From IMG/VR virus record IMGVR_UViG_3300031951_000682, positions 1 to 33,863 of that record: a DNA stretch of 33,863 nt. One strand, given 5' to 3'. This document shows, piece by piece, positions 7,655 through 30,207 of the stretch. Position numbers and translations under genes: made by a program. Source of the DNA: a virus. The stretch's first letter is position 1. Every line of letters begins with the position of its first letter. The notes under the pieces are model-generated. The model ran no database searches, was not told the origin of the DNA, and saw only the letters and a program-made list of their open reading frames with translations.

Positions 7655-7932
7655 ACTTTCTTGATTTACTGAACATGGTGGCGCGTGAGGCACGCCCTGC
7701 GCACCATTCACTCAGTCCTATGACGGATATGGAGACACCGTTCACAGAGACTGAACTTGACTCACTCGATGGGCTGATGATCGTCATGTACATGTCCATC
7801 ATCTATGGCATCGAAGACGATCTGGTGAAGGAATTTCACCCGGAGACGCCGCAAATCCTGTTTGACTTCATCCAGCAGCACAAGACTCAAGAGCCTGAGT
7901 CGATTGAGCAAGCCAAGGAGTTGATTAAATGA
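7651..7932 (+). CDS. Acyl-carrier-protein-like protein
   Basis: 93 residues; the start at 7651 has GGGGGAA upstream and overlaps the previous gene's end, so longer upstream frames are not needed. Residues 36-78 match an acyl carrier protein: LDSLD with Ser38 in the DSL phosphopantetheine-attachment motif, then a helix (MIVMYMSIIYGI) and an acidic third helix region ending FHPETPQILFDFIQQH, as in the TVQ-x-x-x-x-YI end of ACP. The N-terminal 30 residues differ from typical ACPs and the C-terminus has an extra Glu-rich tail. It overlaps the ketosynthase gene by ATGA (7929-7932), which strongly supports a partnership. Carrier function is inferred; it would need a phosphopantetheinyl transferase from the host. 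Confidence 0.6.
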   Translation: MNFLDLLNMVAREARPAHHSLSPMTDMETPFTETELDSLDGLMIVMYMSIIYGIEDDLVKEFHPETPQILFDFIQQHKTQEPESIEQAKELIK

Positions 7933-9044
7933 TTTACCTGAGCGACTACCGGATCGCGGCCACCCACATCACCAAACTCATGGAAGACATTCGCCACCCT
8001 CAGGTGGTGAATCTTTTTCCGGAGACGTTCGAAAAGATCAAGACTGGCCTGTTTTACGTGCCCCACCGGGTGGCCGACAAGGTGATTGACCAAGAGTTGG
8101 CCAAGACCTTGCGTGAGGACACCGAGGCCAAGACCGCATTCATTCTGGCGGCTGGCAACGGGCACTTTGCAGGGATCAACCCCGTCAAGTCCGAGCCCAA
8201 CAGCTTGATCTACGAATACAAGTTCCTGCCCCTGACGCTGACGCAGGTCTACGCCGGGCGCACAGCGCAAGCATTTGGGGCGTCCGACCACATCGTGACC
8301 GACTCCACCGCCTGCGCCTCGAGCATGAAGGTGCTCATGGACGTGCAGACCCTGATGCGCTTTTATGGCTTCAACCGGGTGATCGTGCTGGCCGTGGAAG
8401 ACCAAGTCAGCAACCTGACCCTCAACTTCTTCGGTGAAGCGCAGGCTTCGCTGGCTTGGAAGGACGAAAAAGAGGGTGTCAAGCCCTCGGCCTTCGACAG
8501 CGTAAATGGCGGCTTCCACGTGGGTCAGGGGGCCTGCTTGGCGGTGTTTGAGGACGAAGCAACGGTCAAGCGCCGTGGAATCACCCCCAAGGGCCGACTT
8601 TTGGGGGCCTACACGGCCTCAGAAGCCTGCGCCAATGCCATCGGCCAGACTGAGGGCGGCGAGGGCTTTGTGAGGGCCGCAGTGGGTGCTCTGAAGATGG
8701 CAGAACTGACCCCGGCGTGCGTTTCGGTGATCAAGACCCACGGCACGGGCACCAAATCCAACAATCGGGCTGAGAGATCAGCCATCGAATCGACGTTCAC
8801 GGACTTTGTGGCCACCTCCTACAAGCAGGTGATCGGCCATACCATGGGCGTGAGCGGCTTGCTTGAGACCTGCATGTTGATCGACAATATGACCAACGGG
8901 TTTGTGCCAAGCATTCCAAACAGAACAGAAGAGGACGACGTGTTCCTGTCGCACGACATCGAGGCTCCGAAAGGGGCCATTTTGTCATTGGCGGCTGGTA
9001 TGGGGAACGTGTACTCGGCCGCAGTAATGACAACGGAGTTATGA
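7929..9044 (+). CDS. Beta-ketoacyl-[ACP] synthase (FabF/KAS II-like)
   Basis: 371 residues, somewhat shorter than FabF (about 412), mainly at the N-terminus. The full Cys-His-His triad of decarboxylating ketosynthases is visible: Cys129 in DSTACASSM, His271 in KTHGTGTKSN and His304 in GHTMGVSG, with the conserved Lys299 five residues before His304. Spacings (142 and 33 residues) match E. coli FabF (140 and 37). FDSVNGGFHVGQGA matches the D-x-x-x-x-GFxxGxGA block. The gatekeeper loop GFGGTN of FabF is replaced by GMGNVY, with Met358 at the gatekeeper Phe position. Family members condense acyl groups with malonyl-ACP in the cytoplasm. The gene overlaps the ACP-like gene and is one base from the next, inside a block of virion genes. 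Confidence 0.88.
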   Translation: MIYLSDYRIAATHITKLMEDIRHPQVVNLFPETFEKIKTGLFYVPHRVADKVIDQELAKTLREDTEAKTAFILAAGNGHFAGINPVKSEPNSLIYEYKFLPLTLTQVYAGRTAQAFGASDHIVTDSTACASSMKVLMDVQTLMRFYGFNRVIVLAVEDQVSNLTLNFFGEAQASLAWKDEKEGVKPSAFDSVNGGFHVGQGACLAVFEDEATVKRRGITPKGRLLGAYTASEACANAIGQTEGGEGFVRAAVGALKMAELTPACVSVIKTHGTGTKSNNRAERSAIESTFTDFVATSYKQVIGHTMGVSGLLETCMLIDNMTNGFVPSIPNRTEEDDVFLSHDIEAPKGAILSLAAGMGNVYSAAVMTTEL

Positions 9045-20133: not shown

Positions 20134-20949
20134 ATGAAAAGAGTGAACCTGCATGACATCCGGATCGATGGCGGCACCCAAAGCCGTGTAGTGATCGATC
20201 AACCCACGGTGTACCACTACATCGAGTGTGCCAAAGGCGGCGACGAGTTCCCGCCCTTGGAGACAGTTTTTGATGGGGCAACGCACTGGCTGGTCGATGG
20301 TTTCCACCGCTACCACGCCTACAAGCTGATGGGCCTCAAGCAAGCCGATGTGAACTACAAGCCCGGCACGCAATCAGAGGCCCAGATCATCTCGTTTGGC
20401 GTCAACGGCAGGCACGGCAAGCCTCGCACGGTGGAGGACAAGCGCAACGCAGTCGAGATGGCCTTGGCGCACCCAGACCTCAAAGACGCCACCATGTACG
20501 AGATCGCCAAAATCTGCTGCGTGTCTCAGCCATTCGTTGCTGGCGTGAAAGACCCGGAGAAGAAGAAAAAGCAAAAAGAGGCCAAAGACAAGAGCATCAA
20601 AAAGAAGGCCGAAGAACTCCACGCTCAGGAAGCGGCAGAGACTGCTAATCCGATTAGTATCGAAAAAGCAACACATAGGGAAACCCCTGATCTAAATACT
20701 GGTGCTGGCCCAGATGAGGAGGAGTTGAGAGCCAATGAACTGGCACTGCAAGCCGACATGGACATCATGTACAAGATGCTCGAGGCTGACGATGCACTGG
20801 CTGTTGCACACGAGGAAATCAAGCGCCTGAACCTTGCCTACGCCCAACTGGACGTGCGCTTCAAGGGCCTGATGAACGAGCGCAACCAAGCCGTCAAGAT
20901 GGTCAAGGAACTGCAAAAGCAAATCGACAAGTCGAAAGCCAAAAAATGA
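20134..20949 (+). CDS. ParB-like nuclease-domain protein with coiled coil
   Basis: 271 residues with GGAG before the ATG. Residues 1-95 are a ParB/sulfiredoxin-type N-terminal domain: RIDGGTQSR, then WLVDGFHRYHAYKLMG with the G-x-H-R box at 56-59. Residues 100-140 form an HTH-like stretch (EMALAHPDLKDATMYEIAKI, CCVSQPFVAGV). A Lys/Glu-rich linker leads to a coiled coil (195-271). In phages such proteins may bind or nick DNA at specific sites and aid replication or regulation. The coding region contains a palindrome (20645-20657) that recurs at 27514-27526. It overlaps the helicase gene by ATGA. Confidence 0.75.
   Translation: MKRVNLHDIRIDGGTQSRVVIDQPTVYHYIECAKGGDEFPPLETVFDGATHWLVDGFHRYHAYKLMGLKQADVNYKPGTQSEAQIISFGVNGRHGKPRTVEDKRNAVEMALAHPDLKDATMYEIAKICCVSQPFVAGVKDPEKKKKQKEAKDKSIKKKAEELHAQEAAETANPISIEKATHRETPDLNTGAGPDEEELRANELALQADMDIMYKMLEADDALAVAHEEIKRLNLAYAQLDVRFKGLMNERNQAVKMVKELQKQIDKSKAKK
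20644..20685 (+). repeat. Composite element copy 1: CTAATC-C-GATTAG palindrome plus TAGGGAAACC
   Basis: GCTAATCCGATTAGTA (20644-20659) holds a perfect 6-base-arm palindrome, followed 16 bases later by TAGGGAAACC (20676-20685). The same pair recurs at 27513-27562 with a single base changed in the 16-mer. This copy is inside the ParB-like coding region in a locally AT-rich linker. Confidence 0.6.
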
Positions 20950-22499
20950 ACCAAACCCTAGCGCCACGTGAGCGTGATGATGGATTTCCAACACCCCGCC
21001 AATTTCAACTGACTGCCCACAATGCCCTTCGCCAAGGGTTTCGTGATGGCCACAAGAACCAGATCATCATGGCCCCCACAGGGGCTGGGAAGACATACCT
21101 TGGTCTGCGCATCTGCAACGAGGCCATCCAAAAGGGCAAGCGCGCAGTGTTCCTGTGCGACCGCACCACGCTGATCGACCAGACCTCTGAGGTGGCTGAC
21201 CGATACGGCCTGTACGACCACGGCATCATCCAAGCCAAGCACTGGCGTCGCCGCCCTGATGAACTGCTTCAGATTGCCTCTGTGCAGACCATTGGCAAGC
21301 GAGGCTTTTGGCCAAAGATGGACGTGCTCGTCGTGGACGAGGCCCACACCACCTACAAGGCGTGGACTGAGTTTGCAATGAGCACTGGCGCGGCCGTGAT
21401 CGGTCTGTCGGCCACGCCCTTCACTGTGGGGCTGGGCAAGATATTCTCGAACCTGATCAACGCCACCACGATGTACGACCTGACGCAGAACGGCGTGCTG
21501 GTGCCCATGCGCATCTTCTCGTGCTCCAAGCCCGACATGACTGGTGCTGAGACCTCTGGCGGCGAGTGGACGGACAAGGCTGCTGAGGAGCGCGAACTCA
21601 AGATCGTGGGTGACGTGGTGGCCGACTGGCAGCGTTTTGGTGACAACCGCAAGACGATTGTGTTTGGTGCCACCATCAAGCACTGCGAAGAGTTGTGCCG
21701 CCAATTCATCAACGCTGGCGTCATGGCGGCTGTGTTCACGTCGGACACCACCAAGAAGGAGCGCGAAGACCTCTTGAAGGAGTACAGGAAGCCCAACAGC
21801 CACCTGAAGGTCTTGATCAGTGTCGAGGCCTTGGCCAAGGGTTTTGACGTGCCTGACGTGGGCTGTATCTGCGATGCGCGCCCTTTGCGCAAGTCACTGT
21901 CCACTGCCATCCAGATGTGGGGCCGGGGCCTGCGGTCGTCGCTCGAGACCGGAAAGCAGGACTGCCACCTGCTGGACTTCAGCGGCAACATCATTCGCTT
22001 CTTCGAGGACTTCAACGACATCTACTTCAACGGGCTGGATTCGCTTGACTCTGGCGACAAGCTGGACAAGAAGATTCGCACGCAAGAGGAATTCGAGCCC
22101 AAGGGGTGCCCACGCTGCGGCTACACGCCGTTTCACAAGCGGTGCATGGCCTGTGGCTTTGAGAAGGTGTCGTCGCAAGTGAGCGAGGCCCTGCCGGGTC
22201 ACATGAAGGAAATCTTCATCGGTGAGGGCAAGAACAAGAAGAAGCTGGCCGACAACGCCGAGCACTTGTGGCATCAAGTGGTGGCGTATGCCAAGCACCA
22301 TAGTGCGCCCGAGAAGCAGTCAGCGCGTGCATGGCACCTGTTCAAGCAGATCACTGGCCAAGAGACACAATGGGCATTCTCGAAAGCGCCTGCGGTCGAG
22401 ATCACCAAGAACGTGTACAACAAGATTCAACAGATGAACATCGCCTACAAAAAGGGCATGGCCAGCGGCTGGAAGAGTGCAGGAGGGCACAAAGCATGA
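20946..22499 (+). CDS. SF2 DNA/RNA helicase (DEAH box) with zinc finger
   Basis: 517 residues. ATPase motifs in order: APTGAGKT (Walker A, 43-50), VVDEAH (129-134), GLSATPF (motif III, from 153), VFGATIKHCEE (motif IV), SVEALAKGFDVPDVG (motif V) and QMWGRGLR (motif VI, 323-330). After the two RecA-like domains comes a Cys4 zinc-binding site (Cys388, 391, 400, 403) and a basic C-terminal domain. The layout resembles RadD/UvsW-type repair helicases. It probably unwinds replication or recombination intermediates; whether it is the replicative helicase is unclear, since no hexameric helicase is seen. Translation is coupled to both neighbours. Confidence 0.88.
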   Translation: MNQTLAPRERDDGFPTPRQFQLTAHNALRQGFRDGHKNQIIMAPTGAGKTYLGLRICNEAIQKGKRAVFLCDRTTLIDQTSEVADRYGLYDHGIIQAKHWRRRPDELLQIASVQTIGKRGFWPKMDVLVVDEAHTTYKAWTEFAMSTGAAVIGLSATPFTVGLGKIFSNLINATTMYDLTQNGVLVPMRIFSCSKPDMTGAETSGGEWTDKAAEERELKIVGDVVADWQRFGDNRKTIVFGATIKHCEELCRQFINAGVMAAVFTSDTTKKEREDLLKEYRKPNSHLKVLISVEALAKGFDVPDVGCICDARPLRKSLSTAIQMWGRGLRSSLETGKQDCHLLDFSGNIIRFFEDFNDIYFNGLDSLDSGDKLDKKIRTQEEFEPKGCPRCGYTPFHKRCMACGFEKVSSQVSEALPGHMKEIFIGEGKNKKKLADNAEHLWHQVVAYAKHHSAPEKQSARAWHLFKQITGQETQWAFSKAPAVEITKNVYNKIQQMNIAYKKGMASGWKSAGGHKA

Positions 22500-23365
22500 C
22501 TTTCATTGACTTCGCACGGGCACACGGCGTGTCCATTGACCCCAACCGCCTGTATGCCTCCGACAAGATCAAGCGCTGCGGCACTGTCGAGCGCCCGAAC
22601 TCTGGCAACGGTGCTTATTTCTGGGATGGCCAGCGCGGATGGGTCATGGACTGGTCAGGAGAGGCCAGAGTGGTCTGGTACGAAGACCCGCATGCCAAGC
22701 CTTGGACAGACGAAGAAAAGCGCGCATGGGCCGCAAAAAGGGCCTCAGCGGCCACTGAGCAGGAGAAGAAGTACCAGAACGCCGCCTTCCAAGCCGACGT
22801 GACCCTGCGCAGCGCCAAGTACGACCACCACCCCTACCTCGAGATCAAGGGCTTCAAGGAGACCCGTGGGCTGGTGCTGGACGACAAGCTGCTGATCCCG
22901 ATGCGCAACGTCTCCAACAACAAATTGCAGGGCTACCAGTCGATCCGCTGGGACATGCAAGAGCGCAAGTACGAGAAGAAGATGCTGCACGGCATGCGCG
23001 CCAAGAATGCGGTGCTGTACCTTGGGGCGCGTGATGCTGAGGAGTGCTGGCTTGTGGAGGGCTTTGCCACCGGGCTGTCTGTGCGGCACGCCCTGCGCAG
23101 TGTGGGCATCCCGGCATCGGTGGTGATTTGCTTCAGCGCCAGCAACATGGTTCAAGTGGCCGACCAAATCAAGGGCAAGCGGTTCATCTTTGCAGACAAC
23201 GACGAGAGCAAGACGGGCGAGAAGTCAGCAATTGCGACAGGCCTGCCGTGGACGATGGCCGACCAAGTTGGCTACGACGCAAACGACCTGCATTTGAAGG
23301 ACAGCTTGTTTGCTGTGGTGGGCAAAATGATGGAGGTTCGACAGAGGGAAATGGTATACTTCTGA
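22496..23365 (+). CDS. Toprim-domain primase-like protein
   Basis: 289 residues from the ATG at 22496 overlapping the helicase stop (ATGA); an upstream longer frame is rejected. The Toprim motifs are CWLVEGFATGLS (Glu188) and RFIFADNDES (Asp234 and Asp236), which bind the metals used in RNA-primer synthesis. An N-terminal domain (about 1-70) with aromatic residues (GAYFWDGQRGWVMDWSG) replaces the usual zinc finger; no CxxC pair is seen. It resembles phage primases of the Toprim_4/DnaG type. With the helicase upstream it likely primes phage replication by the host polymerase. Confidence 0.8.
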   Translation: MTFIDFARAHGVSIDPNRLYASDKIKRCGTVERPNSGNGAYFWDGQRGWVMDWSGEARVVWYEDPHAKPWTDEEKRAWAAKRASAATEQEKKYQNAAFQADVTLRSAKYDHHPYLEIKGFKETRGLVLDDKLLIPMRNVSNNKLQGYQSIRWDMQERKYEKKMLHGMRAKNAVLYLGARDAEECWLVEGFATGLSVRHALRSVGIPASVVICFSASNMVQVADQIKGKRFIFADNDESKTGEKSAIATGLPWTMADQVGYDANDLHLKDSLFAVVGKMMEVRQREMVYF

Positions 23366-23404
23366 CCTTCGAAAAGTCGTGCTGATGGACTGAAAACACC
23401 AGCG

Positions 23405-23470
23405 CCAACACACATGAGCATTGTCCTCTGGGGTTTCCCGGAGGCCCGGAACAGTGTTCAGTTGTGTTGG
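23405..23470 (+). ncRNA. Structured element A: three-way junction downstream of the primase gene
   Basis: CCAACACA (23405-23412) pairs perfectly with TGTGTTGG (23463-23470) and encloses two hairpins: CCTCTGGG/CCCGGAGG (23425-23432 with 23437-23444, loop GTTT, one G-U pair) and GAAC/GTTC (23449-23452 with 23456-23459). It may be the 3' UTR of the primase mRNA or part of a larger RNA. No T-run follows and no protein is encoded. Confidence 0.45.
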
Positions 23471-23543
23471 TGTGGTTTAGAAGTTTGTAAAACGACTGCG
23501 AATTGACGCAGCAGACGCTGGACTCACAATCAGCCACCAACAC

Positions 23544-23574
23544 TTGACAAAGGTTTCCCGGTTTACCTTAAAAT
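23544..23574 (+). promoter_or_regulatory. Sigma-70-like promoter of the small RNA
   Basis: Consensus TTGACA at 23544-23549 and TAAAAT at 23569-23574, 19 bases apart (18 if TTAAAA is used). GGTTTCCC, a motif repeated in this region, lies in the spacer. The start would be near 23581. Confidence 0.55.
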
Positions 23575-23580
23575 CGGGGC

Positions 23581-23702
23581 ACTGCTGGAATTGGAAAGCC
23601 AGCATGAAGAATCGCTAAGTCAGACTCCGGCCCCGTAAGGGGTTGTTGGTGCCCACAAGGTGCCAGCCTTTCCAAACGGGGTCTGTCTTAGCGATTTTTT
23701 TT
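23581..23702 (+). ncRNA. Structured element B: about 120-nt small RNA with long closing stem and terminator
   Basis: After a hairpin TGCTGG/CCAGCA (23583-23588 with 23599-23604), bases 23610-23629 pair with 23677-23696: 19 of 20 positions, including one G-U pair, with a single U-U mismatch. Enclosed are CCCC-GTAA-GGGG (23631-23642, GNRA tetraloop) and a nine-pair hairpin (23645-23653 with 23659-23667, loop CACAA). The closing stem is followed by eight T (23695-23702), so it doubles as an intrinsic terminator. The promoter upstream makes a discrete transcript likely. I do not recognise the family. Confidence 0.65.
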
Positions 23703-23773
23703 GGCCCAGCCACTTCCCGTACTCCGCACGAAAGTAGGGGCCGCAAGTGGGGCCGCTCGGAAGGAAACCGCGA

Positions 23774-24046
23774 CACGGTATGCAACCGTGGACTTGATGA
23801 TGGTGAAAGCAAGGTACTTAGGCACGGTGAGAGGGCTTGCCCGTTAGGCTGTACCAGCGCCCGGAGCCGCTTAGGGCCACCATCATCAAGTCCATGGGCT
23901 AGGGGGCAGTTCCCGAATAATCCGTGCGGCTGGTCGAATCATCAAGCCGAGGGGTAGACGGTACTCAATCCGTCACATGATGATCCTGTTCAACAGGGGT
24001 GAAGCACCTTCCCTCTCTACCTCACGTCTGGGGTAGGGGGGTCTTT
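23774..24046 (+). ncRNA. Structured element C: about 270-nt region with perfect 16-bp helix
   Basis: Bases 23790-23805 pair perfectly with 23878-23893 (GGACTTGATGATGGTG with its complement). Inside are GGTAC/GTACC (23813-23817 with 23851-23855) and GGG-CTTG-CCC (23833-23842). Around it lie CACGGT/ACCGTG (23774-23790), CGGCTGGT with ATCA-A-GCCG (23927-23949), GACGG/CCGTC (23957-23974), CCTGT/ACAGG (23985-23997) and a ten-pair stem (24012-24021 with 24032-24041) ending in TCTTT. There is no credible reading frame with a ribosome binding site. The density of helices suggests a functional RNA, perhaps of the large ornate phage RNA type; no promoter of its own is obvious. Confidence 0.5.
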
Positions 24047-24100
24047 GGGTGAAAGGATTGATTGGGGTCAATGAGGGGGCAAATTCCGGCCTCGCTCGAA

Positions 24101-24119
24101 TCAAACTTCATGTTAGACT
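24101..24119 (+). promoter_or_regulatory. Promoter/operator copy P3
   Basis: TCAAACTTCATGTTAGACT: the left dyad arm has one mismatch (TCAAAC), the right arm GTTAGA is intact, and -10 TAGACT (24114-24119) has the extended TG. It lies 25 bases ahead of the oxygenase gene. No leader hairpin follows. Confidence 0.6.
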
Positions 24120-24143
24120 GGCGCAATTTAACGGAGAGAGAAA

Positions 24144-24779
24144 ATGGATCAACTCGAAGAGATGCATTACTTTGCAACGCCTGTCTACGTGGTGCATAAG
24201 CCTGAATTCATTGACGCTGTGCGCACGGTGTCCAGCCGCTACGAAGAGGTCTCTCGTGAGCGCAAAAAGAACCCTGACTACGTCAACCTGATGACTGCCA
24301 GCTACGCGCATGAGCAGGAGTTGCAAGACTTCTCTCAGTACGTCTCGCAGACTGCTTGGAACATCCTTGCGTCGCAGGGCTACAACATGGATCAGTTGGT
24401 GACCTACTTCACCGAGATGTGGACGCAAGAGCACAACCACCTGTCCTCCATGGAGACCCATGTCCACGGGGCTGGATGCCAGATCAGCGCGTTCTATTTC
24501 ATCGACGTGCCCGAAAACGCCTGCAAGCTGGTGGTGCATGATCCCCGGCCCGGCAAAGTGATCATTAACCTGCCCGAGAAGGACGCCAGCCAGATCACCT
24601 TGGGGTCGCACCAGATCGTGTTCACACCCAAGCCCGGCGCGCTGATTTTGCTCAATGCATGGGTGCCCCACTCCTTCACCAAAAACATGGGCAATGAGTC
24701 CATGCGATTCGTTCACATGAACCTGTCGGTGGCTGTCGGTGATGAGCCCAAAGAGGACAACTCTGTGGAGGTGATATGA
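24144..24779 (+). CDS. 2-oxoglutarate/Fe(II)-dependent oxygenase
   Basis: 211 residues with GGAGAGAG before the ATG. The core matches the 2OG-FeII_Oxy_5 family: THVHGAGCQISAFYFIDVPE (candidate iron ligands His106/His108), VVHDPRP (from 130), PKPGALILLNAWVPHSF (His176 as distal ligand) and MRFVHMNLSV (Arg188 for 2-oxoglutarate). Such enzymes hydroxylate proteins, nucleic acids or small molecules; the substrate here is unknown. Many tailed phages of aquatic hosts carry one. It follows promoter P3 and overlaps the next gene by ATGA. Confidence 0.75.
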   Translation: MDQLEEMHYFATPVYVVHKPEFIDAVRTVSSRYEEVSRERKKNPDYVNLMTASYAHEQELQDFSQYVSQTAWNILASQGYNMDQLVTYFTEMWTQEHNHLSSMETHVHGAGCQISAFYFIDVPENACKLVVHDPRPGKVIINLPEKDASQITLGSHQIVFTPKPGALILLNAWVPHSFTKNMGNESMRFVHMNLSVAVGDEPKEDNSVEVI

Positions 24780-25003
24780 AGTTCCGCATCCGATTCAACA
24801 AGTCTGCTGGCCAAGAGGGGCGCGGCACCAAGGATCACGTGTGGCGCGTGTTCGCAGGCAAGAAGGAATATCTGGCCAAGAACGTCATCCTGATCGTGCC
24901 CAGCCGCAGCGAAAAAGACTGCTGTAGCAACGACTGGAACATGGTGTGCGAAGGCGAGATGCACATCGACCGGGAAACCTCGACAATAAAAATCTTGCCA
25001 TAG
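24776..25003 (+). CDS. Small protein, unknown function
   Basis: 75 residues, overlapping the oxygenase stop by ATGA. It looks like a compact beta-rich protein (MKFRIRFNKSAGQEGRGTKD, VWRVFAGKKEYLAKNVILIV, GEMHIDRETSTIKIL) with a CC pair and a further Cys that could bind metal. Co-translation with the oxygenase suggests a shared process, but no homology is recognised. Confidence 0.6.
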   Translation: MKFRIRFNKSAGQEGRGTKDHVWRVFAGKKEYLAKNVILIVPSRSEKDCCSNDWNMVCEGEMHIDRETSTIKILP

Positions 25004-25006
25004 CAA

Positions 25007-25025
25007 TCTAATTCCGTGTTAGACT
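25007..25025 (+). promoter_or_regulatory. Promoter/operator copy P4
   Basis: TCTAATTCCGTGTTAGACT: intact dyad (TCTAAT, GTTAGA, five bases apart) and extended -10 TAGACT (25020-25025). A weak -35 TTGCCA lies 19 bases ahead of the -10. The predicted start is at about 25032, at the edge of the leader hairpin. Confidence 0.7.
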
Positions 25026-27562: not shown

Positions 27563-27600
27563 ACTTAGAAAAATAATTGCAAAAAGTCTTTTCAACAGAC

Positions 27601-27619
27601 TCTAACTTCGTGTTAGAAT
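27601..27619 (+). promoter_or_regulatory. Promoter/operator copy P5
   Basis: TCTAACTTCGTGTTAGAAT: perfect dyad TCTAAC/GTTAGA and extended -10 TG-T-TAGAAT (27614-27619). No good -35 box; the extended -10 probably suffices. The start should be near 27626, at the leader hairpin. Confidence 0.7.
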
Positions 27620-30176: not shown

Positions 30177-30207
30177 TTGACGACAGAATCTAACTTCATG
30201 TTAGAAT
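30177..30207 (+). promoter_or_regulatory. Promoter/operator copy P6, with -35 box
   Basis: TTGACG (30177-30182) and -10 TAGAAT (30202-30207), 19 bases apart, with extended TG. The dyad TCTAAC-TTCAT-GTTAGA (30189-30205) is perfect and covers the spacer and part of the -10, so a bound repressor would block polymerase. Confidence 0.75.

Follow-up and report, generated by a model that had tools for sequence, protein, structure and literature searches.

Structured RNAs encoded by phages are a known kind. The packaging RNA of phage phi29 (pRNA) is about 120 nt long and combines a multi-helix junction with loop pairing. The RNA antitoxins of type III toxin-antitoxin systems are pseudoknotted, are found in phages or bacteria and come with a terminator, and GOLLD and ROOL RNAs are phage-carried, highly structured and conserved. 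The small RNA considered here is like pRNA in size, junction and loop pairing, but is located in other types of phage, beside replication or terminase genes. It is pseudoknotted and terminator-bearing like the type III antitoxins, but has neither tandem repeats (a search at the RNA returned only one 12-nt two-copy repeat, outside of it) nor a toxin gene following, its place being taken by another non-coding RNA. It resembles GOLLD and ROOL in being carried by phages, structured and conserved, and in the tRNA genes found near some of its loci, whereas those RNAs are much larger. Finally, it ends like an intrinsic terminator, in a GC-closed stem followed by U8, but the stem is about twice the usual length and is joined by its own promoter and a conserved pseudoknot. 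The notion that the element is a plain terminator only is rejected because the conserved promoter and pseudoknot accompany the terminator.

The window is the whole of a 33,863-base virus record, and the small RNA and the RNA that follows it (slot 2) both lie in one 778-base gap between a primase and an oxygenase gene that holds no conserved gene (Table 1). The family matches nothing in Rfam 15: there were 0 matches in the window at the gathering threshold, and permissive E-values over 23300-24200 gave only an implausible retroviral match (E 0.95). The Rfam GOLLD and ROOL models have no match in the window, nor does that of family RF02932, for which 23300-24200 lacks a match even at E 5. RF02932 differs in structure from the small RNA and is not the same RNA, being its neighbor in relatives. 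The slot-2 RNA of the window (element B) belongs to no Rfam family.

Table 1. Features of the RNA gap and of the genes around it in the window
Feature	Position	Strand	Details and basis
ParB-like protein gene	20134-20949		
Helicase gene	20946-22499		
Toprim primase gene	about 22493-23365		
-35 box TTGACA	23544-23549	+	sequence; box pair conserved across loci
Imperfect operator-like dyad AAGGT...ACCTT	23550-23569	+	promoter spacer; sequence
-10 box TAAAAT	23569-23574	+	sequence
Pseudoknotted small RNA, family A1	23581-23702	+	start inferred from promoter; fold, covariation, covariance model
P1, 5' hairpin	23583-23604	+	stem 23583-23588 with 23599-23604; predicted fold and permutation test
Pseudoknot 5' strand TTGGAAAG	23591-23598	+	P1 loop; complementary in 37/37 relatives
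P2 long stem, 5' strand	23610-23629	+	20 positions, paired with 23677-23696; lone mismatch T23620 opposite T23686; fold and covariation
P3 hairpin	23630-23643	+	CCCC-GTAA-GGGG at 23631-23642; fold and covariation
P4 nine-pair hairpin	23645-23667	+	23645-23653 with 23659-23667; variable in relatives
Pseudoknot 3' strand CTTTCCAA	23668-23675	+	junction, between last inner hairpin and P2 3' side
Intrinsic terminator	23677-23702	+	P2 3' strand 23677-23696; U-run of eight T 23695-23702
Slot-2 structured RNA, type B	23712-24061	+	alignment of 24 sequences; boundaries approximate
Optional inserted hairpin in element B	about 23784 or 23790 to 23896		also in L104, L103 and L038
2OG-Fe(II) oxygenase gene	24144-24779		next gene after RNA gap

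Promoter and Fold of the Small RNA

A preliminary description of this sequence had proposed an independent transcript of about 120 nt with TTGACA/TAAAAT promoter signals, a 5' hairpin, a long stem with one mismatch, an enclosed GNRA-loop hairpin, a nine-pair hairpin and a terminal run of eight T. All of these parts are present where they had been placed, the mismatch being T·T. Near-consensus TTGACA and TATAAT boxes (at least 10 of 12 matches) are found upstream of the RNA in 72 of 79 loci, compared with 3.1% of shuffled sequences. The spacer of 19 nt in the window is long for sigma-70; across loci, spacers are mostly 18-19 bases, some are 15-16 and 17 is rare. The dyad symmetry of 63 distinct spacers sums to 201, against 174 (sd 6.2) in shuffles, which is some excess, and the operator-like dyad occurs as a single copy in the window, where further copies were sought. 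Control of the promoter by a repressor or an activator is a possibility.

The predicted fold of 23581-23702 has an energy of -64.4 kcal/mol (z -7.9), which none of 200 shuffles equaled. The preliminary description named every hairpin of this fold and overlooked the pseudoknot, in which the loop of P1 pairs with the junction 5' of the closing strand of P2. Family A1 is characterized by P1, the pseudoknot, an interrupted P2, P3 and the U-run, all of which are found in the window, itself part of the alignment from which the covariance model was built; this model (R1) matches 23578-23701 at 100.4 bits. Together, fold, covariation and promoter conservation make a putative discrete structured RNA gene of about 120 nt, with its own promoter and terminator, well supported.

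Conservation of the Stem and the Pseudoknot

The A1 alignment consists of 37 members of the family, with the conserved core GTTAAGTCAGACTCCGACCCC...GGGG...CGGGGTCTGTCTTAAC. Over the stem and the pseudoknot, 95.1% of the alignment cells pair (88.9% when shuffled), both sides have changed in 19 of the 34 pairs, and the covariation score is 0.250, as compared with 0.131 when shuffled and at most 0.099 when partners are slid; RNAalifold alone reports 14 pairs with double changes. Homologues were checked for loss of the long stem, and it is kept. Its interruption is kept as well, as T·T in 34 members and C·A in 2, with a T-A pair in 1.

The pseudoknot is the most telling part of the fold. In the window TTGGAAAG pairs with CTTTCCAA, in relatives GTGAGAAC pairs with GTTCTCAC and GTGGCAAC with GTTGCCAC, among others, and compensatory changes keep the pairing in all 37 members, each with at least 6 contiguous pairs (mean 8.35). 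In permutation tests, which ignore shared ancestry, the pseudoknot strands of the 37 members score 756.5 with their own partners and at most 599.5 in 20,000 permutations, and P1 gives 505 against 409.

The conserved bases of A1 are nearly all paired and the loops vary. The GNRA tetraloop of P3, correctly recognized in the window by the preliminary description, is not conserved, being present in just 10 of 37 members, and was rejected as a docking feature on that count. A role as a CsrA decoy via a GGA in the loop was likewise rejected, as GTGAGA and GTGGCAA variants lose the GGA.

Related RNAs in Other Viruses

A search of viral contigs with the primase recovered 71 related loci, many of which have hundreds of non-coding bases after the primase, with a long stem ending in a T-run. 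A second family, A2, takes the same genomic place with a different sequence, and one pattern recovered it in 40 contigs. Since exact core patterns were the main means of gathering the A1, A2 and B sets, these are biased towards conserved members. Two further RNAs of differing sequence, A3 and A4, occupy the place of A1 in other phages. The A1 model matches both weakly and at the correct place, and both carry a covarying pseudoknot (for A4, from two sequences); in A2, the pairing at the pseudoknot position is shorter and less variable. For the pseudoknot plan in 73 representatives that precede element B, own pairs score 1297.5, with a maximum of 1033.5 in permutations that again take no account of shared ancestry. 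Throughout these families of unrelated sequence a T-run (at least 4 T, mostly 5-9) directly follows the stem. It appears, judging by these alignments, that upstream RNAs of quite different sequence share one knot-plus-terminator plan. They would form a group of phage RNAs that is absent from Rfam and whose sequences are unlinked by ordinary searches.

The A1 and A2 patterns are found in several settings. Some copies follow the primase, others follow the terminase large subunit (L095, L100, L121 and L136), and in still other phages they precede a divergent parB-helicase-primase block. A search of plasmids gave no match, and one genome per species from 84,980 bacterial species gave a single match, inside an apparent coding sequence and taken as chance. 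Bacterial viruses of freshwater carry this putative small-RNA gene, and together with the RNA that follows it, it recurs in many viruses, both related and unrelated. Among annotated phages, A1 occurs in one record, MW202545 (Manatee Spring). There, an annotated hypothetical protein, UOF78434.1, overlies the small RNA (L098, 5739-5966), and this is probably a false gene call.

The Downstream RNA and the Two-RNA Cassette

The preliminary description dealt with the small RNA and missed that another non-coding element nearly always comes next. In 124 of 128 small-RNA loci, a count to which loci selected by element B contribute weight, the element directly downstream also recurs in two or more other loci. 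These slot-2 elements fall into five classes that are mixed among the small-RNA types, and comprise element B, RF02932 and further classes. The gap between the small RNA and slot 2 is short, usually with little room for a promoter. Element B is present in at least 119 viral contigs, and its alignment of 24 sequences has several helices with double-sided changes. By eye, it also contains a pseudoknot, AUCAUC with GAUGAU, that becomes AUCGUC with GACGAU in L017, L027 and L084. The 3' part of its optional insert in L104 resembles a tRNA T-arm (GGGTTCGATTCCC); ARAGORN called no tRNA on this insert.

In relatives, both phages and phage-derived contigs, RF02932 (Betaproteobacteria-1) comes immediately after the small RNA, and it was found in the phage locus of L016, L018, L020, L050, L053, L059, L060-L064, L066, L067 and L097. 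This orphan family thereby gains a context, a phage locus that is often behind a primase gene, and its Rfam model may describe no more than the beginning of a longer element. In L061, L066, L067 and Acidovorax phage AP1, slot 2 is directly behind the primase without the small RNA; since RF02932 occurs in this manner, slot 2 can stand alone. The small RNA is followed by still other large non-coding elements in L100, L101, L109, L117 and L136, in L115 and L125, and in L114 and L126. Folding energy by itself does not set the slot-2 stretches other than element B apart, and a likeness of the L109 element to RNase P, noticed by eye, has no Rfam support.

Because slot 2 is nearly constant and differing upstream RNAs follow the same plan, the window RNA appears to be one of the variants that fill a mix-and-match phage cassette of two RNAs. 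In the open-licence papers searched, no cassette was found that places a diversifying pseudoknotted RNA in a slot before a larger one. The mixing of the two RNAs suggests that variety is selected for, as it is in phage-host conflict, and the locus is compact enough to be deleted or expressed in a laboratory host.

How the Small RNA May Act

The favored explanation, to which we assign a probability of roughly 0.4, is that the small RNA opens a tandem cassette of two RNAs and acts in trans by its fold, while its leaky terminator feeds slot 2. Host RNA polymerase would transcribe the small RNA, most transcription would stop at the U-run to free a compact, stable RNA, and some would read through the terminator into the slot-2 RNA. 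The freed RNA may then work in trans, most probably by binding a host or phage protein. Action in trans is proposed because the small RNA occurs in several genomic contexts, and binding of a protein is preferred to pairing with mRNA because conservation falls on the knotted shape and the interrupted stem and not on an exposed seed. The covariation of stem, pseudoknot and P1, together with the conserved promoter and the several contexts, favors this explanation, as do the recurrence of the pseudoknot plan in other RNA families, the cassette arrangement, the lack of an antisense excess in the phage itself and the negative searches of plasmids and species genomes; against it, the constant slot-2 neighbor also fits a role in cis or one long RNA.

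The main rival takes up that last point. The small RNA may mainly act in cis, as an attenuator: a regulated terminator within the slot-2 leader, with the pseudoknot setting the rate of termination at the long stem and hence the dosage of what lies downstream, RNA and genes alike. Its almost invariable position immediately ahead of slot 2 and in the same orientation, the usual lack of promoter room before slot 2, and the slot-2 RNAs found behind the primase without it are consistent with such a role, but the predicted fold offers no alternative antiterminator pairing and few conserved unpaired bases of the kind that form a ligand pocket. An attenuator is a possible but tentative explanation. 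Doubtful to a somewhat greater degree is the proposal of a previously undescribed system in which the pseudoknotted small RNA, diversifying fast, and the larger, ornate one are modules swapped between phage lineages and make up a ribonucleoprotein machine or a counter-defence device against bacterial hosts.

It is unlikely that both RNAs belong to a single large, ornate molecule of about 450-550 nt in which the U-run is only an interdomain linker. The small gap, the tandem arrangement in nearly all loci and the folding of the whole 778-nt gap, which beats shuffles (z -7.8), speak for a single molecule, but the T-run recurs after the stem across families of unrelated sequence, as a terminator would, and slot 2 is also found alone. 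Moreover, no partner-specific pairing joins the two, as the pairs formed between a small RNA and its own element B are no better than swapped ones.

Bacterial trans-acting sRNAs have a size, promoter and terminator of the same kind, and the preliminary description had listed a sponge or mRNA regulator among the possible roles. A regulator that pairs with host mRNAs or sRNAs, as a sponge or an antisense RNA, is nevertheless rather improbable: the conserved bases are almost all within helices, the loops are variable and there is no conserved unpaired seed. The longest antisense match in the phage itself, 11 nt, shows no excess over shuffles (mean 10.5, maximum 12). A polymerase-binding RNA, also suggested, receives no backing from the Rfam 6S models, which have no match in the window. 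The proposed packaging role, on the lines of phi29 with intermolecular pairing of the loop and junction, is highly improbable: the complementarity could form between molecules of this similar size, but the Rfam pRNA model has no match in the window, an ordinary large terminase lies beside the small RNA in four loci of another context, and no phi29-type packaging ATPase happened to be noticed.

Other Features of the Locus and Its Relatives

Between the primase and the small RNA, 23366-23500 is a third strongly folding stretch (z -6.1), and its first 50 or so bases are conserved in L007, L008, L015 and L033. A promoter-like dyad motif, TCTAA-CTTCATG-TTAGA and variants, is repeated ahead of several genes of the window, at about 24095-24115, 24995-25025, 27589-27619 and 30177-30207. 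A beta-ketoacyl synthase-like gene (7929-9044) lies amid the structural genes. Among the relatives, tRNA genes are found closely upstream of the small RNA in L025 (4613-4767), L033 (4218-4477) and L121 (1419-1490).
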